Under the pieces are notes generated by a model that did no database searches, had not been told where the DNA came from, and worked only from the letters and a program-made list of their open reading frames with translations. A program made the position numbers and the translations under genes. Positions 5,430-27,268 of a stretch of DNA of 55,700 nucleotides are shown one piece after another (the first letter of the stretch is position 1; every line of letters begins with the position of its first letter). Where the stretch lies: positions 1 through 55,700 of the forward strand of contig CAMCVV010000010.1 of assembly GCA_945881905.1 (NCBI GenBank), read 5' to 3'. The stretch is from Paenibacillus alvei. Lineage in GTDB: Bacteria; Bacillota; Bacilli; Paenibacillales; NBRC-103111.

Positions 5430-6020
5430 CTATGATTCATACTGAATGATCATCGGTTGTAATTGCTGAGCTTGTAATGCTGCAACGCATGTTTCCATGA
5501 TGAGACTTGATTTTGCGACAAGCGAGTTAGGTTTGTTCACTGGCGCATCTTGACCAAATGGAACAAAGTATATGTTCTTGGTGTTGATTAGTTTAGCGAC
5601 ATTCATAGCATTGAGCCCTAAACCATCATTCGTAGATATCGCTATGACGAGTGGTCTTTGATTTCTGAGTTGAGCCTTGGCAGCCATTAATACAGGACTT
5701 TCTGTCATTGCATTAGCGAGTTTACTTGTTGTGTTACCTGTACATGGAGCTATAACAAGGATGTCTAATCGTTTGGAAGGACCTAGTGGTTCTGCAGTGA
5801 CGATCGCATCAATAATATCATTATTCGTTATTTCTTGTAATTGCCTCAACCATTTCTCAGCTTCGCCGAATCGCGTATTGGTAGACATCATCGTTTGCGA
5901 TACGATGGGAATCACATTAGCTCCTGCTTCAACGAACCTAAGGATTTGTTGCATGGTTTCTTGAATCGTACAATGTGAGCCTGTGAGAGCAAAACCTACA
6001 GTCTTATCTCGCCAATTCAT
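5430..6020 (-). CDS. dpaB: Dipicolinate synthase subunit B (SpoVFB)
   Basis: The 196-residue flavoprotein-fold subunit of dipicolinic acid synthase, acting in the mother cell late in sporulation. It opens with WRDKTVGFALTGSHCTI, and carries APCTGNTTSKLANAMTESPVLMAAKA, a phosphopantothenoylcysteine-decarboxylase-like flavin motif. The ATG overlaps the dpaA stop as ATGA, so the two subunits are translationally coupled. In the family, the A and B subunits together oxidise dihydrodipicolinate to dipicolinate. Its presence is the strongest evidence in the window for endospore formation. Confidence 0.95.
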   Translation of the reverse strand: MNWRDKTVGFALTGSHCTIQETMQQILRFVEAGANVIPIVSQTMMSTNTRFGEAEKWLRQLQEITNNDIIDAIVTAEPLGPSKRLDILVIAPCTGNTTSKLANAMTESPVLMAAKAQLRNQRPLVIAISTNDGLGLNAMNVAKLINTKNIYFVPFGQDAPVNKPNSLVAKSSLIMETCVAALQAQQLQPMIIQYES

Positions 6021-6916
6021 AATGCAGTTCCTCGATATATGAAGTCCTCATGAATCAGCCGACTTATCGTGGTAGCAATGATTCGCCCAGCGGTTTTGGG
6101 AGCAACAATACCAGGTAATCCAGGAGCTAGCATGGCTTTAATGCCTCTTTTTTCGGCGTACCGGAAATCAGTTCCGCCAGGATGCGAAGCCAAGTCGATA
6201 ATAATCGCATGAAGTGGAATATGTGCAATAATTTGTGCTGTGACTATCATAGTAGGAATTGTATTAAAAAGCAAGTCAATCTTGTTCGCTTCATCGTATA
6301 GCGAAGTGATATAAAAAGGTTGCAAATTCATTTCCCAAGCTCGAGCGTAATCCGCAGCTTCCCTTACGCCTACTTTGACTTGTGCACCGAGTGCTTGCAG
6401 CAACCGAGCAAGGGTCATGCCCGTGCGACCCATTCCAAGAACAATACATGTAGAACGATGAATCGTTATATCGGTATGTTGAATGGCCATCATGATGGCC
6501 CCTTCAGCAGTTGGAATCGAGTTATATATCGCTACATCATCTCGGTCAAACAATTCGATCACTTCAATGTGATGTGTATGTGCCAGTGATTTCAAATAGG
6601 GTTTGGCTAATCCTGTGTAGATTTTCACATGTTGGGGAAGTGCTTCTATATGTTCTTCTTTGATGATGATTTGTTGATTCGAGAAAAGTGTTCCGACTTG
6701 ACCTACGTCATCCGTGCCAATGACGGGCAAGATTAATACATCAAGGTTTTTGCATAATTCTCTATGAAGCTCGCTGCGAATCAGTCCTTTTCGTTCGCTT
6801 TTCAATTCATCGAAACCTACTAATGTTACAGATGCATCAAGATCTGATAATTGATCAATGACTTCTAATTGACGCGCATCTCCACCAATAATCGCAACCG
6901 ATATTCCCGTTAGCAT
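6017..6916 (-). CDS. dpaA: Dipicolinate synthase subunit A (SpoVFA)
   Basis: The 299-residue dehydrogenase-like subunit of dipicolinate synthase. The N-terminus (MLTGISVAIIGGDARQLEVI) is characteristic. A second nucleotide-binding motif, VLGMGRTGMTLARLLQALGA, lies near residue 160, and FNTIP and DLASHPGG follow. A GGTGGG site precedes the ATG. The gene follows a good match to a sigma-K promoter and is the first gene of the spore DPA/lysine cluster. It probably forms a complex with DpaB in the mother-cell cytoplasm. Confidence 0.95.
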   Translation of the reverse strand: MLTGISVAIIGGDARQLEVIDQLSDLDASVTLVGFDELKSERKGLIRSELHRELCKNLDVLILPVIGTDDVGQVGTLFSNQQIIIKEEHIEALPQHVKIYTGLAKPYLKSLAHTHHIEVIELFDRDDVAIYNSIPTAEGAIMMAIQHTDITIHRSTCIVLGMGRTGMTLARLLQALGAQVKVGVREAADYARAWEMNLQPFYITSLYDEANKIDLLFNTIPTMIVTAQIIAHIPLHAIIIDLASHPGGTDFRYAEKRGIKAMLAPGLPGIVAPKTAGRIIATTISRLIHEDFIYRGTAL

Positions 6917-15871: not shown

Positions 15872-18868
15872 TCACCTCTCTACCTTTTCCAAAATAAAGG
15901 ATTCAATGACATCTCCTTCTTTAATGTCTAAGTAGCGTTCTAATGATATCCCACATTCATACCCTTGTGCTACTTCTTTCGCATCATCCTTGAATCTCTT
16001 CAATGAATCGATCTTCCCTGTGTAGACGACTATGTTATCACGGAGTAATCGGACACCTGAATTACGTGCGACTTTACCGTCGGTAATCATACATCCAGCT
16101 ATGGTTCCTGAACCTGTGATTTTAAACACATTTCGCACTTGCGCATGACCCAAGATGACTTCTTTGAAGATCGGATCGAGAATCCCTTTCATTGCTTGTG
16201 TAATCTCTTCAATCACGTTGTAGATTATCGAATGCAAGCGAATATCGACTTTCTCTTGATCTGCTGTGGTTTTCGCTGCTTGCTCAGGTCGCACATTAAA
16301 CCCAATGATAATGGCATTAGATGCAGAAGCAAGGGAAACATCTGTTTCAGTGATCGTTCCTACACCTGAATGAATGATTTTTACACGAGCACCTTGTACT
16401 TCGATTTTCTCAAGAGATCCTTTTAAAGCTTCAACGGAGCCTTGAACATCTCCTTTGATGATCACGAACAAGTCTTTGATGTCACCATCAGAAATTTGTT
16501 TGTATAATTCGTCCAATGTAACACGTGAGTTCGCACCCATTTCGGATTGACGCAATTCAATCGAGCGTTTTTCTGCAATATCTCTTGCTTTGCGTTCATC
16601 TTCAAATACCATGAAAGGATCCCCTGCTTGTGGAACTTCAGTGAGGCCTGTGATTTCAATAGGTGTTGAAGGGAATGCTTCTTTGATTTTTTTGCCTTTA
16701 TCATTCACCATAGCTCTAACGCGACCAAAACACACACCTGCTACGAAACTGTCTCCTACTCTAAGTGTACCGTGTTGTATCAGAATTCGTGCGACAGGAC
16801 CTCTGCCTTTATCTAATTCTGCTTCAATGATAGTTCCTCGTGCACGTTTGTTAGGATTCGCTTTGTATTCTTGAACTTCAGCAACTAAAAGAATCATTTC
16901 CAGTAAATTTTCGATTCCTGTCTTATTCTTTGCAGATAATTCACAAAATATCGTGTCTCCACCCCATTCTTCGGGGACAAGTTCGTATTCGGTTAACGAT
17001 TGCTTGATTTTTTCAACATTTGCACCCATTTTGTCAATTTTGTTGACAGCTACAATAATCGGTACTTTAGCCGCTTTAGCATGATTGATTGCTTCGATCG
17101 TTTGTGGCATCACGCCATCATCAGCAGCAACGACGAGTACGGTAATGTCGGTCACTTGAGCACCGCGAGCTCTCATCGTTGTGAAAGCTTCATGTCCAGG
17201 AGTGTCTAAAAACGTAATTTTCTTCGCATTGACTTCCACTTGATAGGCACCAATATGTTGCGTAATGCCTCCTGCTTCATCATTCGTTACATTCGTATGT
17301 CGAATCGCATCCAATAAAGTTGTTTTCCCATGATCGACATGACCCATGATCGTTACAACGGGAGGGCGAGTTAACAGATTCTCTGCTTCATCTGTTTCTT
17401 CAATGGTTTCAAATCGGTCATCTTCAATCGTGATTTTGATTTCAGTTTCCACATTGAACGCATTCGCTAGGAGTTCGATTGCTGCCAAATCTAATTCTTG
17501 ATTGATCGTTGCCAAAACCCCTAAAGTCAGAAGTTTTTTGATGACTTCAGCTACATCTTTATGCAATAATTTTGCAGTTTCACCTACAGTCATGTGACCA
17601 CGGACAATGATTTTTTTGGGAGTATTATCTACTTTTTCTTTTTTCGCATTTGCTTGGTTTTTGTACTTGGAATTTTTTGAATTCCACTTTGATTTCGAAT
17701 CGGTTGAACGCGAATCATCAAAACGATTAGGTGCTAATTTTGAACCTTTTTTTGCGGCTTCTTCGGATTCTTTGCGGAAAGGTGGTTTTTTATCCGCAAA
17801 TGGTGGTTTAGTACGTGTATTGGCTGCACTGCGATTGAGATCATTTGCTCGTGAGGCTTGAGCAGGCTGATCGCGATTCTTCGTAAGTGCGTCCGTTGAA
17901 GATTTGGGTTTATCTCTGTTCGGTGCAAATCTAGTGTTCGAAGATGTCGAATTGGTGTATGAAGGATTCGGTCTTTGTGTTGAAGAAGAATAATCACTAC
18001 GCGGATTCCCTGTACCTGTTGGACGCGGATTTCCTGTACCTGTTGGACGCGGATTCCCTGTACCTGTTGGACGTGGATTCCCTGTGCCTGTTGGACGCGG
18101 ATTCCCTGTGCCTGTTGGACGCGGAGTATATGCGGGTTTATTTGATGGATCTCCTGTGTTATTTGAAGAATAACTTCGCGGACTAGGAGTACCATTTCCT
18201 GAGTGCGCTGAATTGTTTCTCACGTTACTTGGATAAGCGTTGTTTTCGTTTCTTGACTCATTGGATGGTGCAGGTCTAGAAGGTAGCTGTTGAGCATCCA
18301 TCGGACTTGAATTCACAGGAGTCTCTGAATTCGCAGGAGTCTCTGAATTCACAGGAGCTGCGTAATGGCTAGTTGACGTAGATTTGTAGGAAGTACTTTG
18401 ATTGCGTGATGTATAGGTTGATGATGTATTTGTGCGTTCAGATGACGGGTATGAAGTTGGTTTGTCATTTTTATTTAATTGTTCATTTGCTTTTTTCCTT
18501 TGCTCTGCAAGGTCATCGCGGCTTACCTTCGAAGAATTCAACACTTGGTTTCGCGTATCATCATTGGATTGTATCGAACTAATTGTTGATTTATCTAGTT
18601 GTTCTTGTTGTGAAGCAGGTTTACTTTGATTGTTTTTTTGTGATTGTGCAGTTGTTACTGCTGCATGCTTCGCAGCTGCATTCGCTTTAATGTCGTGGAA
18701 AAACTTCTCGACTGCATGAACGGAATCATTTTCCATTACGCTCATGTGATTATTGACAGGTAGGTTCAAACGTTTCAATATGGTGATGATTTCTTTACTG
18801 TTCATATTTAGGGATTTCGCGTATTCGTAGACACGTAATTTATCTTTATTGTCATCTTTATTCGTCAA
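15872..18868 (-). CDS. infB: Translation initiation factor IF-2
   Basis: GTPase that brings fMet-tRNA to the 30S subunit. The 998-residue protein starts with an IF2_N domain ([21 protein letters not shown]). A very long polar linker (about residues 60-420, rich in Ser, Asn, Pro and Gln) follows and holds an eight-residue repeat. A second IF2_N domain comes next. The G domain starts near residue 505 ([21 protein letters not shown]), with domains II-IV after it. The start is TTG at 18866-18868 because GGAGGTGG lies eight bases upstream; it overlaps the rplGA (ylxQ) end by 11 bases. Length exceeds the B. subtilis protein (about 716) almost wholly through the linker. Confidence 0.97.
18001..18120. 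repeat. Five 24-base tandem repeats inside infB
   Basis: Five near-identical 24-base units (consensus GCGGATTCCCTGTACCTGTT then GGAC on the plus strand) encode five copies of an RPTGTGNP octapeptide in the IF-2 linker, residues about 250-289. Units differ at single, mostly synonymous positions, so the array expanded recently. The reading frame is preserved by the multiple-of-three unit. Confidence 0.95.
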
Positions 18869-19187
18869 TTCTCTCCACCTCCGTAAGATTTTCATGATAC
18901 TTTTGCAATGATTTTGCAAAACCTTCATCTAACACAGCTAAAATAACACTCGCCTCTTTACCAACACTTCGTCCTAACTCACTTTTGCTACATATTTCTA
19001 ACAGCGTAGCACCATAAAACTCGCATTTATTTTGAAATTTCTTACGCGTGTGAGCTGAAGCATCATTAGCGATCAGAACGAGTTTAGCTTGATTAGAGCG
19101 AATCATTTTGAATGTGTTCTCATCTCCTAGAGCTAACTTACCTGCACGCATGGCCATTCCTAATGTTAACAGGAATTTACTCTTCAC
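18858..19187 (-). CDS. ylxQ: L7Ae-family RNA-binding protein YlxQ
   Basis: A 109-residue kink-turn-binding protein of the L7Ae/L30e family ([53 protein letters not shown]). It overlaps ylxR by 11 bases at its start and infB by 11 bases at its end, forming the nusA–ylxR–ylxQ–infB group conserved in Firmicutes. Members bind structured RNA, and a ribosome or RNase P link has been proposed; the exact role is not settled. Confidence 0.92.
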
Positions 19188-21196: not shown

Positions 21197-21220
21197 AAAG
21201 AGTGGGTTTCCCCACTCTTT
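21197..21220 (-). promoter_or_regulatory. Perfect hairpin in the rimP–nusA leader
   Basis: AAAGAGTGGG and CCCACTCTTT form a 10-base-pair stem with a four-base loop. On the minus strand it is followed by a short interrupted T-tract (CTTTACATTTT). It lies about 30 bases after the predicted transcription start and about 97 bases before the rimP ATG. It may be an attenuator of the operon or a terminator for readthrough from the sugar-acid operon. Confidence 0.6.
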
Positions 21221-21507: not shown

Positions 21508-22455
21508 TCACTGCTCTTCATCTGGGTATTCCCCTTGCTCTACCCATTCACCGATAAGGTTACACAGGATTCGGCGGAAATATTCGCGCCGCGTATAGGA
21601 TAAGAAACTGCGGGAATCTGTAAGCATTCCTACGAATGGACTTAATAATCCTACATCGGCATGTGTTCTCATTTGAACAAGCATGCCTTCTTTGGTATCG
21701 TTGAACCACCATGCAGAACCGAGCTGTATTTTACCTGCTGTAGCGCTGCTTTGGAAGTTGCCGATCCATGTACCGATGTTGTGATGTTGAGTCGGGTCCC
21801 ACTTGTGCGAACATCCGAGAATTGTTGTTGCGCGAAGCATTCATGTGGTATTGCATGACCCCTCCTCGCGATGCATAGGGCACATCATCGAGCGCATGCT
21901 CAGATACGCGACAACCGATCTCGTGGAAATTGCTTATACGCTGTTCGAGTGCAGCTTGTAAATCGGTAAACTAATGGATTGAGATGCCACTTACTGCGGC
22001 AAGCTTGTGAATCCAGTCCTTGAAGCCTGAACGGTTGATTTCGATGCTTTTGTCTGGTCGAAATGAAGGTAAGACATGAACAAAAAAAGATTCATCTGCT
22101 TGTAACTTGCGATGATAGATCAGGTTATCTATCGGATCATCAGAGGTACATATGGTTTCTACATGTGAGCTCAAGAAGAAATCACATGCTCGCCCAAATC
22201 ACTGAAATCACCGGTGATGTAGTGTTCGTCTATGCCATGTGCACGCATCAATCTCCATTTGTAATGATCCCCATATAACCAGATGGCAGTAAGATTCGGG
22301 TAAGACTTGTTCTCGTATATTTCTTGAGGGCTCAAATGACAATGATAATCGATAATGGGTAACGGCTTGACATAACGGTGGAATAGTTTGATTGCTGTCG
22401 CGTTGGTTAACAGAAAGTGATCATCTAAGAATGGTCGTACCATCGAACTCATCAA
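21508..22455 (-). pseudogene. uxaC: Glucuronate isomerase (UxaC) remnant
   Basis: UxaC converts glucuronate to fructuronate, and galacturonate to tagaturonate. Its pieces are recognisable in order. The N-terminus (22171-22455) has [16 protein letters not shown] and [20 protein letters not shown] second frame from 22174 has SDDPIDNL and SFRPDKSIEI. A third part has [35 protein letters not shown] and, after a further frame change, [30 protein letters not shown] and [13 protein letters not shown]. Damage: about 70 codons deleted with a frameshift near 22172; an in-frame TAG at 21971-21973; a large deletion between VPYA and GVMQ; a frameshift near 21830; and loss of the last 20 or so residues. 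The intact gene is about 1.4 kb; 0.95 kb remains. It was the last gene of the larA-like operon. Confidence 0.93.
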
Positions 22456-22494: not shown

Positions 22495-23265
22495 TTATAT
22501 GGTTATGGCACCAAATCCTCCATCCACGCGAAGAAATGTCCCTGTGACAAATCCTGACGCGCGCTCAGATGCTAGGTATACTGCAGCTCCTTGTAATTCT
22601 TCGGGTTTTCCGAAACGATTCATGGGTGTATGGCTCATGATCTGCGCAATTCGTTCTTCAGAGAGGATTTTTTTGTTCTGCTCTGCTGGAAAGAAACCAG
22701 GAATAATGCCATTGACACGAATCTGATAAGGCGCGAATTCACGTGCAAGATATTGCGTCAGCGAATTCACACCTGCTTTGGATACTGAATAAGTTAACAC
22801 GCGTGAGAGTGGAGGGCCCGAGGAAACCGAGGATATATTAATGATGCTTCCGCCTGTTCCTTGTTCGATCATTTGTTTACTAAATACTTGACATGAAAGT
22901 AAGATGCTCAAGAGATTGACATCCATAATCTCGTCCCATTCTTCTTCAGTAATCTCGAAGAACGGTGTTGCACTATTCTTGCCGGGACAGTTCATCAGGA
23001 TGTCCACTTGGCCAGACCAAGCGAGAATCTCTGAACAGATTCTAAACACATCTTGCTTCTTGGTTGCATCTGCTTGAAATGCTTTCGCTTCGTACCCGCT
23101 TTGTTGTAAGTGCGTTACGACTTCAGCTGCAGTCTGGACATTTCGGCCGACGATGGCTACTTGTGCTCCATGTGCTCCGAGTGCTTCTGCCATGACTGAT
23201 CCGAGGGTACTGTTTCCTCCGATCAATACTGCTGTTTTGCCTGTTAAATCAAACAATGATCGCAT
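22495..23265 (-). CDS. uxuB: SDR oxidoreductase, probable D-mannonate oxidoreductase / fructuronate reductase
   Basis: A 256-residue classical short-chain dehydrogenase. It has the cofactor motif GGNSTLGS, catalytic Ser146, Tyr159 and Lys163 (YSVSK), and the C-terminal VDGGFGAITI. The region PGFFPAEQNKKIL … HTPMNRFGKPEEL … FVTG resembles the SDR-type mannonate oxidoreductases (UxuB) rather than gluconate 5-dehydrogenases; this is judged by memory of the family. The predicted reaction is NADH-dependent reduction of fructuronate to D-mannonate. The ATG at 23263-23265 follows TAGGAG, which contains the gntK stop. It lies 12 bases after gntK and 40 bases before the uxaC remnant, supporting a hexuronate role. 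Substrate is inferred. Confidence 0.72.
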   Translation of the reverse strand: MRSLFDLTGKTAVLIGGNSTLGSVMAEALGAHGAQVAIVGRNVQTAAEVVTHLQQSGYEAKAFQADATKKQDVFRICSEILAWSGQVDILMNCPGKNSATPFFEITEEEWDEIMDVNLLSILLSCQVFSKQMIEQGTGGSIINISSVSSGPPLSRVLTYSVSKAGVNSLTQYLAREFAPYQIRVNGIIPGFFPAEQNKKILSEERIAQIMSHTPMNRFGKPEELQGAAVYLASERASGFVTGTFLRVDGGFGAITI

Positions 23266-23277
23266 CTTCAAGTGCTC

Positions 23278-24813
23278 CTAACTGTTATTTTTTTGAAATG
23301 CACTGATTCTTGCGAACGGTTCTACCAATTGAGTATATACGTCTGTATACATCGCATATAATTCATCATATATGATTTGATTCGCAGGATGCGGAACATG
23401 TTGATCGGTAATCTCGGACCAATTCTCTGCAGCTTCAAGCGATGGAAGATCACCTAGCGCATACAATCCAAGAGCTGCAGCACCTAATGCGGAGCTTTCG
23501 ATGGAATTCGGTACAGAAAGTCGTGTACCTAAGATATCTGCGAGTGTTTGTCGCCAAAATGGAGAGCGTGCGAAGCCACCAGAAGCTCTAATCTCAAGTG
23601 GTTTCCCTGTAGTGAATTGAACAGATTCTGCCACGGATCGGATGGCATATCCGATTCCTTCGAGCACAGCGCGGATCATGTGTTTCTTCCCATGCGCAAG
23701 TGACAGTCCGAAGAACACACCGCGCACATCAGCATTCCAATACGGTGCTCGTTCACCAGCAAAGAGTGGCAGTACGATCAGACCCCCTGATCCTGCAGGT
23801 ACATCGCGAGCAAGCGCAGTCAAGCGTTCGTAAGGGTCTATGCCCGCTATTCGTGCTTCCTCTGCTTCTTGAGTAGCTAGTTCGTCTCTGACCCAACGAA
23901 ACAGGATGCCACCGTTATTGATCGCACCTCCGATCACCCACCGATCTTCAGTCAGCGCATAACAAAACGTACGTTCAAGTGGATCTGTAGTCGGTTCATG
24001 AACCATGGCTCGCACAGCGCCACTTGAACCAATCGAAACCGCGAATGTATCTGAGCGGACAGCACCTACACCGACATTGGCTAGCACGCCATCAGACGCA
24101 CCAATGACGACTGGCGTATGAATAGATAAGCCCAGTTGATCAGCCCAAGTGCGCTCGATACCTTGGAGGATATGTGTTGTTGGAACAAGTGTTGACAGTT
24201 GCTCCGGGGCTATTCCTGCTGCAGTAAGTGAAGGCATATACCAATCCCGATCTCGTAATGCATACAACCCAGTCGCGCTAGCGATGGATTGATCGATAAC
24301 AAACACGTTACACCAGTGATAGGTGATAAATTCCTTGATACTGACGAATTTATACGTGCGCATATACAGATCAGGACGCTGCTCTCGTAACCACATCAAC
24401 TTAAGTAAGGGTGACATGGGATGCACAGGTGTTCCTGTTGCTCTGTAGATCGCATGTGCATCATGTTGCTCTTGCAGTTTCAAGACATAGGCAGCGCTTC
24501 GATTATCCGCCCATGTCAGGCATGGCGTAAGCGCTATCCCTTCTCGATCAAGTGCAATTAAGCTATGCATTGCTGAGCTGAGTGAAACACAGCGAATATC
24601 GAGGTGTGAGAGGGAAGCTTGTGACATCGCTCGATGTACAGCTGACGAAGCAGATCGAAGAATCTCGTAAGGATCTTGCTCTGCTCGATCAGGTGCTGGT
24701 GTATGTAATGGATATTCGATGGCGGAGGATGCATGGATCCTTCCTTCTTTGTCAATCACAGCTACTTTCGTGCTTGTCGTACCGATGTCAACTGCAACGA
24801 CATATCGATTCAT
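23278..24813 (-). CDS. gntK: Gluconokinase, FGGY family
   Basis: ATP-dependent phosphorylation of D-gluconate to 6-phosphogluconate. The 511-residue protein has the FGGY layout of two actin-like domains. Motifs shared with Bacillus GntK are VAVDIGTTSTK, SLSSAMHSLIALD, TPCLTWADNRS, TGTPVHPMSPL, VIGASDGVLANVGVGA, FCYALTEDRWVIGG, NNGGILFRW, LFAGERAPYWN and ASGGFARSPFWRQ. These favour gluconate over xylulose, glycerol or ribulose, although FGGY specificity can mislead. The ATG overlaps the larA-like stop as ATGA, so both are co-translated. GC content is visibly higher than in the flanking housekeeping genes. No gluconate permease (gntP) is next to it. Confidence 0.88.
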   Translation of the reverse strand: MNRYVVAVDIGTTSTKVAVIDKEGRIHASSAIEYPLHTPAPDRAEQDPYEILRSASSAVHRAMSQASLSHLDIRCVSLSSAMHSLIALDREGIALTPCLTWADNRSAAYVLKLQEQHDAHAIYRATGTPVHPMSPLLKLMWLREQRPDLYMRTYKFVSIKEFITYHWCNVFVIDQSIASATGLYALRDRDWYMPSLTAAGIAPEQLSTLVPTTHILQGIERTWADQLGLSIHTPVVIGASDGVLANVGVGAVRSDTFAVSIGSSGAVRAMVHEPTTDPLERTFCYALTEDRWVIGGAINNGGILFRWVRDELATQEAEEARIAGIDPYERLTALARDVPAGSGGLIVLPLFAGERAPYWNADVRGVFFGLSLAHGKKHMIRAVLEGIGYAIRSVAESVQFTTGKPLEIRASGGFARSPFWRQTLADILGTRLSVPNSIESSALGAAALGLYALGDLPSLEAAENWSEITDQHVPHPANQIIYDELYAMYTDVYTQLVEPFARISAFQKNNS

Positions 24814-26084
24814 CTTGGAATATTCCCTTCTTGATTAAATGTCCACGTGTACGGTTCGGATATGATCTCCATATCTGAACGATGACGTATTTCCTCGCGC
24901 AGAGGTAATGAGATTTCTATCTCTCCTAAGTGCAACGTATCGCGAATCCGAACTAAGCGACATTGATGGAAATCTAAGATATTACTTGTTTTTACAGCAG
25001 CTTTGATAGCAAGCTCTGCACTTTCTAACGTCATGGGTACTTTGGTCGGTGCGCACACCGTTGACGTCAGTCCATTTACATATGTAGCCATATAGTCCAT
25101 CTGATCGACTAATTGTCGCGTAGTGAAATCCGCTGCACCAACACCATTCGTATTTCCTTTGGATTGTGGAGTGACATCGAGTACGACGATCTTGTTGACA
25201 TCAGGTCCACCTGAAGCATATGGCGTCGGATATCTTCCAGTAATATTGGGATCCATTCCGTCCCCACTGATGTTTTTCCCGATGTAATCAACGACAAGTA
25301 CATCGATTTGTTCAAAAAGTAGTTTAGGCATGCGCTGTTTAGCTATTTGTTGCAAGATCACTTCGCGTTCATAGATATGTTGAGCCGGTATGACCTCGAT
25401 AAGACAAGTCTGATCATATGCATTTTCAATGGCAGCGACACCGAATACAATGGGTAATTTCTGAATTAACAAGGAAGCCATTTGTGGAACGAATTCAGCC
25501 ATGTGTCTAAAACCAAGCTGATGACAAGCTTCTGCTCCTTTTTGCTTACCAAGCCCGATAGCGATCATTTTCATGATGCCACTTTCGATCGGTCCACGAA
25601 ATGCTGTATGCGGTTTCACGCGATTGATGACGATAATGGCATCTGCTTGCGAAGCAATCTCATCGACATATACAGGTAATCCGTTTCGTAAGCGATCGAT
25701 TTCGATGACATTCAGCGACGATTCGATGCGAACCCCCATCGTCTCTTCATCAATCCCTAAATGGTTCAATACGTCGATTTGGCCTTCTGCTGTTGCACCA
25801 CCATGGCTACCCATACATGGAACGATGAATGGATGTGCGCCTTGTGCTTTCACAGCTTCAATTACGGTTTTCGTCATCTCAGCGATGTTCGCAATACCTC
25901 GACTACCGACCGCAATCGCTACTCGTTGTCCCACATGAATCTGATCGATCGCACCTGGTTTGTCTAATTCTGAACGCAGAACGTGTATGGGGTCTGTTAA
26001 TTGGGATCTATCAAAATGTTGTCGAATACGTACCATCGCGGGAAGCGGTATCGGCTGAAGCATATTTCTGATGATATCACTCAC
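24810..26084 (-). CDS. LarA-superfamily nickel-dependent 2-hydroxyacid racemase/epimerase, possible mannonate–gluconate 2-epimerase
   Basis: A 424-residue DUF2088/LarA-superfamily protein. Known members are lactate racemase and homologues that racemise or epimerise C2 of other 2-hydroxy acids using a nickel-pincer nucleotide (NPN). Candidate active-site residues are His94 (GSHGG), His159 (KPHT), Lys172 (GIMKM) and His188 (EACHQ). Their spacings of 65, 13 and 16 resemble those of L. plantarum LarA His108, His174, Lys184 and His200 (66, 10, 16; from memory), where the lysine tethers NPN. The start is GTG at 26082-26084, with AAAGGAG upstream; the longer frame runs into the promoter and operator. 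It is the first gene of the gluconokinase–SDR–uxaC operon. Together these suggest D-mannonate to D-gluconate epimerisation. Substrate is inferred; larB, larC and larE are not in the window. Confidence 0.75.
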   Translation of the reverse strand: MSDIIRNMLQPIPLPAMVRIRQHFDRSQLTDPIHVLRSELDKPGAIDQIHVGQRVAIAVGSRGIANIAEMTKTVIEAVKAQGAHPFIVPCMGSHGGATAEGQIDVLNHLGIDEETMGVRIESSLNVIEIDRLRNGLPVYVDEIASQADAIIVINRVKPHTAFRGPIESGIMKMIAIGLGKQKGAEACHQLGFRHMAEFVPQMASLLIQKLPIVFGVAAIENAYDQTCLIEVIPAQHIYEREVILQQIAKQRMPKLLFEQIDVLVVDYIGKNISGDGMDPNITGRYPTPYASGGPDVNKIVVLDVTPQSKGNTNGVGAADFTTRQLVDQMDYMATYVNGLTSTVCAPTKVPMTLESAELAIKAAVKTSNILDFHQCRLVRIRDTLHLGEIEISLPLREEIRHRSDMEIISEPYTWTFNQEGNIPR

Positions 26085-26103: not shown

Positions 26104-26133
26104 TTGTTAACAACGTTGTTATTATGATATAAT
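26104..26133 (+). promoter_or_regulatory. Promoter of the LacI-family regulator
   Basis: TTGTTA (26104-26109) and a perfect TATAAT (26128-26133) are separated by 18 bases. The spacer contains the palindromic operator, so the regulator would repress itself. A CATAAT element on the opposite strand (26121-26126) may belong to the divergent larA-like operon promoter. Confidence 0.6.
26108..26121. promoter_or_regulatory. LacI-family operator palindrome
   Basis: TAACAACGTTGTTA is a perfect 14-base palindrome with the central CG typical of LacI-family operators. It lies in the 167-base divergent region, 24 bases upstream of the larA-like GTG and inside the regulator's promoter, so one site could control both directions. 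Confidence 0.75.
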
Positions 26134-26251
26134 CTTATCATCATACCTTGAGAAACCTTAAATTTCAATGTATTTTATGTATATTCATACGATGAGGAAT
26201 ACGTGGCATTACTGATTGAAGCAGACGTTCATAGATGAAGGAGAATACTAG

Positions 26252-27268
26252 ATGAATGTTACGATCAAAGATATCGCTCGATTAGCCAGTGTCAGCTATT
26301 CGACAGTATCCAAAGCATTAAACAACAGCCCTCTCGTACGTCCTGACACCAAACAGCGCATTGTTGAAATCGCTCATCAGTTGGCCTATCAACCCAACTT
26401 CGCTGCGCAACGCCTCGTTTCCAAGCGAAGTAAGACTGTGGGGATCGTGCTCCCTTCGTTAGAAAAGATCGCATTATCTGCACTCGTTGAACGAATTAAT
26501 CATGAGTTAACGGATCGCGGATATGAAGTAATCTTATCTATACTTGGTATCCGAGATGCACTCAACATGTTTCAACGACTTCAAGTCGACGGCATCGTTA
26601 TTTTCGAAGAAATTTCCTCTGAACCAACGCCACGTGAAGTGATCACGACAGGTATACCGTTTATCTCGATCGGTTCATCCGATATTTGGGGAACACGGTA
26701 TGCACTCGTGGACGCCAAGCGTAAAGATGCCATAGGCAAAGCTGTGCGATATCTAGTCGGACTGGGTCATCGCCACATCGCCTATCTTGGAGACGCGCGT
26801 GTCCCAGATAGTAAACAGCAAGTGAAAGTAACAGGTTTCTGTGAAGCAGCACTCGCATGCGGACTCTCGCCTGAATCCGCATATGTCATCAATGCTAAAG
26901 GCGATACATGGCTCCAAGGATACGTTGCAGGGCGCGAGTTGATGAATGCTACACATTGTCCAACTGCTGTGATTACAGGTGCATTCGATTTGACCGCTGG
27001 GTTCTTACGATCCGTTCAAGACGCAGGACGTTGTGTACCGGATGATGTATCACTGATCAGCTATGATCATATCCCCAAACTCGCTGAATTAGATGTCCCT
27101 GTCACAGCAGTCGGAGCTCCTATCGATGTATTTGCTCAACGAATTGCTTCGATGTTACTCACAATTATGAATTCACAAAGCCCTATAAGCCTTACTGAAC
27201 TGATTGATGTTGAAATTGTAGAACGTTCATCTTGTCTACCTTATCATGAAACCCCATCTCACATTTAA
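26252..27268 (+). CDS. LacI-family transcriptional regulator of the sugar-acid operon
   Basis: A 338-residue regulator with an N-terminal LacI helix-turn-helix (VTIKDIARLASVSYSTVSKALNN), hinge (PNFAAQRLVSKRSKTVGIVLP) and a periplasmic-binding-protein-like sensor domain to the end. AAGGAG precedes the ATG. It is divergent from the larA-like operon and shares its operator, so it is probably a local repressor released by a sugar acid of the pathway. The effector cannot be read from sequence. Its stop codon overlaps the polC stop codon from the other strand. The gene is GC-richer than polC. Confidence 0.9.
   Translation: MNVTIKDIARLASVSYSTVSKALNNSPLVRPDTKQRIVEIAHQLAYQPNFAAQRLVSKRSKTVGIVLPSLEKIALSALVERINHELTDRGYEVILSILGIRDALNMFQRLQVDGIVIFEEISSEPTPREVITTGIPFISIGSSDIWGTRYALVDAKRKDAIGKAVRYLVGLGHRHIAYLGDARVPDSKQQVKVTGFCEAALACGLSPESAYVINAKGDTWLQGYVAGRELMNATHCPTAVITGAFDLTAGFLRSVQDAGRCVPDDVSLISYDHIPKLAELDVPVTAVGAPIDVFAQRIASMLLTIMNSQSPISLTELIDVEIVERSSCLPYHETPSHI

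Follow-up and report, generated by a model that had tools for sequence, protein, structure and literature searches.

In Paenibacillus alvei, what is probably a nickel-dependent sugar-acid operon feeding the pentose phosphate pathway has lost its accessory glucuronate isomerase gene, uxaC, fairly recently by all appearances, and has kept its core. The window analysed is a stretch of 55,700 nucleotides from contig 10 of the genome (CAMCVV010000010.1 in assembly GCA_945881905.1), and positions given without a locus name refer to it. In the proposed mechanism, the SDR of the operon would reduce fructuronate to D-mannonate, a LarA homologue of group 22 (LarAH) would epimerise D-mannonate to D-gluconate at C2 by means of the nickel-pincer cofactor, and a gluconokinase (GntK) would make 6-phosphogluconate, to be oxidised by a 6-phosphogluconate dehydrogenase (6PGDH, Gnd) encoded elsewhere. 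In this operon lineage the 3′-terminal uxaC gene would have served as an accessory point of entry, converting uronate to 5-ketouronate, until deletions inactivated it in a species with a small genome, the core, the LacI regulator, a palindrome and the cofactor genes being retained. Fructuronate, mannonate or gluconate, taken up from outside or made by another reaction, would now feed the core.

The remnant of uxaC (glucuronate/uronate isomerase) occupies positions 21508–22455 on the reverse strand. Four pieces of it were matched by the Pfam family UxaC (PF02614, cut-off 25 bits), three with 151, 127 and 121 bits and one at threshold with 25.1 bits, and each of the three open frames in the remnant matched UxaC. 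A frame-aware alignment with the intact UxaC of Paenibacillus alkalitolerans, P. thermotolerans and Cohnella cholangitidis placed a first deletion of approximately 57 codons at 22198/22197, closely followed by a frame change (22191–22190), a second of approximately 41 codons at 21878/21877 with the frame kept, and a third of 39–41 codons near 21790 together with the second frame change. An in-frame TAG is located at 21973–21971. The remnant terminates at the stop at 21510–21508 and lacks the final 21–25 residues of the relatives, no trace of which was seen when the three frames downstream were inspected by eye. About one third of the gene has been lost. The earlier note had reported at least two internal deletions, two frame changes, the TAG and a lost C-terminus, all of which were found, and its count of deletions was one short. 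Homology runs along PF02614 and an intact frame is absent, confirming at the sequence level the earlier observation that uxaC is a pseudogene. A terminator-like hairpin lies 3′ of the remnant, before rimP (21197–21220, reverse strand), and similar sites are no commoner than in shuffled sequence. The upstream frames were described as full-length, and indeed the SDR (258 aa), GntK (511 aa) and LarAH (424 aa) all align over their length to relatives.

It is highly improbable that uxaC is intact and that errors of assembly or base calling account for its lesions. In favour of such errors, the assembly is a draft of 87 contigs, yet the three multi-codon deletions are flanked by conserved sequence on both sides, the remaining frames of the operon align at full length to their relatives, and the two genomes that do look error-prone, G032 and G033, are broken in another manner and without large internal gaps. 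Furthermore, 5 of the 82 residues invariant among 38 intact UxaC proteins are altered in the remnant and 77 are kept; in a leave-one-out control, each of the 38 intact proteins differed at 0–2 of 82–84 invariant residues. As for G032 and G033 themselves, LarAH and GntK are fragmented or shortened in both (loci L074 and L073, respectively) and the SDR in G032 as well; these breaks, in genomes of one and two contigs, look like sequencing error, in contrast to the uxaC deletions.

The P. alvei assembly searched comprises 2,400,421 bases and is 99.59% complete. A UxaC profile search of the whole genome gave no PF02614 match beyond the four fragments at this locus, and the suggestion that another uxaC exists is thereby refuted within the assembly. 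A full-strength UxuA was not found in the genome either, the sole match being a two-part one of 121 and 77 bits on contig 49, compared with 487–566 bits for the full-length matches in relatives. The UxuA-like protein encoded there (L231 6156–7190, 344 aa) scored below the NCBIfam mannonate dehydratase cut-offs (160 bits against 191, and 121 against 199.55), and its gene is a possible second outlet for mannonate. Neither UxaE nor GntP had a match in the genome, and no transporter was found in the operon. A single 6PGDH gene is present, on contig 37 and outside the operon, along with two genes of the KDPG-aldolase family.

The first gene of the operon (24810–26084, reverse strand) matched NF052515, 'nickel pincer cofactor-dependent isomerase, group 22', with 542 bits against a cut-off of 400. 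The earlier reading of the operon was right about the intact frames outside uxaC and missed the LarA-type nickel-pincer identity of this gene; since the first gene encodes a LarA-type enzyme, the pathway differs from that reading, and full-strength UxuA is missing from the matches in the genome. The start of LarAH is probably the GTG at 26084, which is preceded by AAGGAG and agrees with the starts in relatives, rather than the listed TTG at 26168. An AlphaFold model of the protein (mean pLDDT 85.4) gave 19 matches in the PDB at E ≤ 0.001, all to chains of the LarA superfamily and with TM-scores of 0.45–0.57; they include 4nar, given in the accessible text of PMC7583248 as GntE2 of Thermotoga maritima. 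At the sequence level, no match to solved structures was obtained by phmmer (E up to 0.1) or with a 14-row profile (E up to 0.01). Candidates for the NPN-binding and catalytic residues, R90, H122, H187, K200, H216 and K298 (452-aa numbering), were invariant in 14 aligned sequences and likewise in 38; they were tentatively paired by eye with R75, H108, H174, K184, H200 and K298 of LarA, in a pairing that leaves D72 unplaced.

According to the accessible text of PMC7583248, in which GntE comprises groups 18–20, epimerisation between mannonate and gluconate at C2 is catalysed by enzymes of LarA groups 19 and 20. The P. alvei protein falls in NCBIfam group 22 instead, and by analogy we propose that it works like GntE without belonging to groups 18–20. 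LarAH22 is absent from the accessible part of the activity table of PMC7583248. The term 'group 22' was found neither in that paper nor in the available text of PMC11770544, where the numbering of enzymes may or may not follow the groups and members of group 22 may be included; Paenibacillus is not named in the available text of either paper. A literature search, whose reach into subscription papers was small, yielded these two papers, and no assayed member of group 22 was seen in their accessible passages.

Genes for the nickel cofactor were found together at one place in the genome and all scored above cut-off: LarE (354 bits), LarB (300), LarC1 (211) and LarC2 (147). Among the 59 genomes compared (P. 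alvei and 58 relatives), LarC was present in all 41 that carry LarAH and in 3 of the 18 that lack it. The LarC gene of P. alvei is split into convergent LarC1 and LarC2 (L230 4994–5467, forward strand, and 5493–6419, reverse strand, contig 16), and separate pieces were the form in which LarC was matched in 41 of the 44 genomes that have it, with one piece in G004, G039 and G043. C. cholangitidis (L079) has one long LarC.

The kinase (23278–24813, reverse strand) belongs to the FGGY type and is intact. It scored 551 bits against TIGR01314, below the cut-off of 648.55, with the next match in the genome at 287; orthologues from the same operon either pass (L112, 668.5) or fail (L080, 555.7), and the nearest solved relative is the gluconate kinase 3gbt. 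The intact SDR (22495–23271, reverse strand) had PRK08277 (D-mannonate oxidoreductase type) as its top-ranked family, with 262 bits against a cut-off of 281. The four SDR orthologues that were scanned, that of the window included, scored 255–264 bits with this family, none reaching the cut-off, and for the other three it was the sole family at E ≤ 1e-70. The nearest solved relatives of the window SDR are putative hexonate and gluconate dehydrogenases. Since both proteins score below the curated cut-offs, their names are drawn from nearest family, orthologues and context, which make the kinase a probable gluconokinase and the SDR a probable fructuronate reductase; these assignments are the less secure as they lean partly on orthologues that are also under the cut-offs.

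Gene order was followed in the best 80 of 132 confirmed LarAH loci from a scan of named genome contigs, ignoring any SDR and Gnd under 55% identity. LarAH, GntK and SDR occur in the same order and on the same strand in 72 of these 80 loci. Where at least 4 kb of room was available, Gnd follows the core in 69 of 75 loci and UxaC is rare near it (3 of the 75). UxaE stands just upstream of LarAH in 6 of the 80, and a cut-off UxaE tail is present in L078. The eight loci without the full core are L077, L079, L094, L151, L106, L117, L120 and L155, among which L094 and L151 lack it at contig ends, and L106, L117, L120 and L155 had neither GntK nor SDR near LarAH (L155 with less than 4 kb of room). 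Compared with the closest operons, in which no LacI under 40% and no SDR under 50% identity was counted, the LarAH, GntK and SDR of the window are 64–79% identical and aligned over their length.

The comparison of the locus in relatives that the earlier note had proposed found related operons with UxaC, UxaE and Gnd. In P. thermotolerans (G040) the order is LarAH-GntK-SDR-Gnd-UxaC, and a full-strength UxuA is present in this genome as well. In G055, one contig ends with UxaE-LarAH-GntK-SDR and the first part of Gnd, and another opens with a Gnd tail and then UxaC; the two contigs presumably adjoin at Gnd. P. alkalitolerans has UxaE-LarAH-SDR-UxaC without GntK or Gnd, and in the genome taken as its own (G047) a gluconokinase elsewhere scores above cut-off with 798 bits. 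In C. cholangitidis GntK is broken, and LarC is found two genes upstream of LarAH. The operon gluconokinase is thus a fragment in C. cholangitidis (L079 11290–12128) and absent in P. alkalitolerans (L077 11266–11272), so that, of the three named relatives in which uxaC lies near the core, two have no full GntK there, a different operon gene having been lost or broken.

Together, the operons of the relatives appear to cover the way from uronate to ribulose-5-phosphate except for the conversion of mannonate to gluconate. It is because they leave exactly this step open that LarAH of group 22 is proposed as the epimerase, its substrate being predicted from gene context; the full route in the relatives would then run from uronate through fructuronate, mannonate, gluconate and 6-phosphogluconate to ribulose-5-phosphate. 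We favour, with moderate confidence, a general form of this proposal, in which group 22 supplies the mannonate/gluconate 2-epimerase to a LarAH-GntK-SDR-Gnd operon that occurs across the Paenibacillales, with UxaC and UxaE as optional entry members, and P. alvei shed the entry and kept the core. Several observations count against the proposed pathway: the scores of the SDR and the kinase below their cut-offs, the two named relatives with uxaC but no full GntK near the core, the loci with LarAH but neither GntK nor SDR (L106, L117 and L120), the possible second outlet for mannonate at the UxuA-like gene, and the lack of a GntP match in the genome and of a transporter in the operon. An unlikely alternative is that LarAH of group 22 uses another acid, the core never having been a glucuronate pathway and uxaC being a chance neighbour. 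Such a reading would account for the core being without uxaC in most relatives, and it gains from the LarAH paralogues: in 20 paralogue regions (L233–L252) the proteins are 38–57% identical to that of the window, neither GntK nor a close SDR was found, and these paralogues probably act on other substrates, the wider family thus being probably multi-substrate. It fits less well with UxaE or UxaC adjoining the core in several lineages, with the single step left open by the remaining enzymes, and with a gluconokinase-type kinase and 6PGDH that fix the product side. Up to seven LarAH matches were counted per genome (G024, G034, G010).

In the set of 59 genomes, P. alvei counted in both figures, LarAH was matched in 41 and UxaC in 36. 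Twelve of the 37 relatives with LarAH above 600 bits had no UxaC match in the genome, and the full three-gene core was seen in eight of these twelve (G011, G012, G016, G017, G018, G019, G028 and G031), all 99–100% complete except G012 at 89%. A core without UxaC is the usual form at the related loci and occurs in eight relatives without any UxaC match, which lends indirect support to the alternative raised before, that the operon runs on fructuronate, mannonate or gluconate. With full strength set at above 480 bits for UxuA and G033 left out for its split LarAH, UxaC was found without a full-strength UxuA in 9 of the 25 UxaC-bearing relatives with LarAH above 600 bits versus 1 of the 9 without LarAH. 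This pattern leans slightly in the direction expected if LarAH is the epimerase.

The surviving pieces of uxaC are 64–67% identical to five intact relatives over approximately 300 columns. Against P. thermotolerans, the divergence of the fragments at first, second and third codon positions was.249,.210 and.593. The resulting second/third-position ratio of 0.35 was compared with 0.24 for an intact UxaC pair, 0.17 for the window SDR and 0.16 for the window LarAH. The SDR ratio rises with distance from 0.11 to 0.17, and scaling the intact UxaC ratio likewise predicts about the value of the remnant, so that codon positions alone were rejected as a sign of relaxed constraint on the fragments. Branch length was also rejected as singling out uxaC: in the UxaC tree the end branch of the remnant is 0.89 (median 0.24), and the window LarAH has a similarly long one of 0.77. 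A starred set with 12 rows included the remnant in this tree, and closer placement was without support. Since 77 of the 82 invariant residues are kept, codon positions by themselves did not show relaxed constraint and the end branch is near that of LarAH, uxaC was probably functional during most of the time since it diverged, and deletions were the main cause of its late breakdown. The earlier idea that decay is only starting at the 3′-end is half right, as the loss of uxaC looks fairly recent; this loss may not be the first change, because UxaE and Gnd, found in some related operons in front of LarAH and between SDR and UxaC, respectively, are missing from the P. alvei operon.

The absence of UxaE (unmatched in the whole genome) and Gnd from the operon, unlike in some relatives, and a genome of 2.4 Mb compared with 4.1–10.3 Mb in the other genomes of the family that were searched, would also suit a decay of the whole operon, with uxaC as the earliest loss to become visible during genome reduction. 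We regard this as quite unlikely, given that LarAH, GntK and SDR are full-length and well conserved relative to the closest operons, that divergence at second positions is far under that at third positions for both SDR (.111 vs.656) and LarAH (.106 vs.649), that all four cofactor genes have open frames, and that the core without UxaC is widespread.

A perfect 14-bp palindrome, TAACAACGTTGTTA (26108–26121), lies between LarAH and a divergent gene for a LacI-family regulator (26252–27268, forward strand) that is 62–65% identical to the operon-side LacI of G040, G047 and G055. The palindrome is exact in the same three genomes and has a single exact copy in P. alvei; at one mismatch the reversed control also matched, and exact copies alone were counted. 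It is proposed as a LacI-type operator to which this regulator would bind, and since TAACAACGTTGTTA occurs exactly once in the genome, the regulon may be this operon alone. A sigma-70-like promoter, TTGAAA-17-TATGAT, is located just upstream of the palindrome (26140–26168, reverse strand), and similar sites are no commoner than in shuffles.

The operon of P. alvei is located between polC and rimP. In 28 of 29 rimP loci from relatives (29 of 57 matching relatives), the end of polC was found 0.15–1.3 kb from rimP, a gap too small for the operon, and neither PolC nor RimP was found in the flanks of the named LarAH loci (best 80 of 132). Quick trees of the core genes, made for 31 of 40 loci (L065 and L067–L074 left out), placed the window SDR, GntK and LarAH each in a supported set of 3–4 rows, with the nearest neighbours among L035, L036 and L037 (G055, G047 and G040). 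The window LarAH is 76–77% identical to this lineage versus at most 72% to its own family; RimP is 60–70% identical to the own family and 60–61% to the lineage of G055, G047 and G040. The operon may have reached the polC-rimP site by transfer or translocation, a weak suggestion because RimP is short and the identity ranges overlap. Elsewhere in the window, five tandem PTGTGNPR units occur in a low-complexity stretch of the N-terminal part of InfB (15872–18928), at approximately 18000–18140.

The canonical Ashwell (isomerase) pathway consists of UxaC-UxuB-UxuA-KdgK-KdgA. The route proposed here resembles it in the UxaC and fructuronate reductase steps and differs in that full-strength UxuA was not found in P. 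alvei and mannonate would be epimerised, not dehydrated. For T. maritima, a route from mannonate to gluconate had been put forward before (Rodionova 2012, as cited in the accessible texts of PMC6978723 and PMC7583248), and the one described here is a variant with LarA group 22. In the GntE route of T. maritima (LarAH20/GntE2), as given in the available text of PMC7583248, a LarA-type nickel enzyme likewise takes mannonate to gluconate and is taken to connect the breakdown of uronates with the pentose phosphate pathway via gluconokinase, as it would here. In contrast, the enzyme of P. alvei belongs to group 22, is unmatched in sequence to solved LarA/GntE and has a predicted activity; its group occurs among Paenibacillales, in operons that include Gnd. 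The galacturonate pathway of Lactobacillus suebicus (PMC6978723, accessible part) similarly joins UxaC, UxaE and UxuB steps to 6-phosphogluconate, and differs in that mannonate is phosphorylated first and 6-phosphomannonate then epimerised, with key genes unnamed; the terms 'LarA' and 'lactate racemase' are absent from its main text.

The decay of uxaC is ordinary by itself, and the interest lies in the predicted function of group 22, a concrete and testable one for a LarA group that is named by number alone in NCBIfam. P. alvei offers a natural experiment, in which the entry enzyme was lost and the core and cofactor genes were kept; the retention of the nickel core after this loss suggests that fructuronate, mannonate or gluconate has a second source. 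If the prediction is true, a nickel-dependent link from uronate to 6-phosphogluconate could replace mannonate dehydratase across the Paenibacillales.
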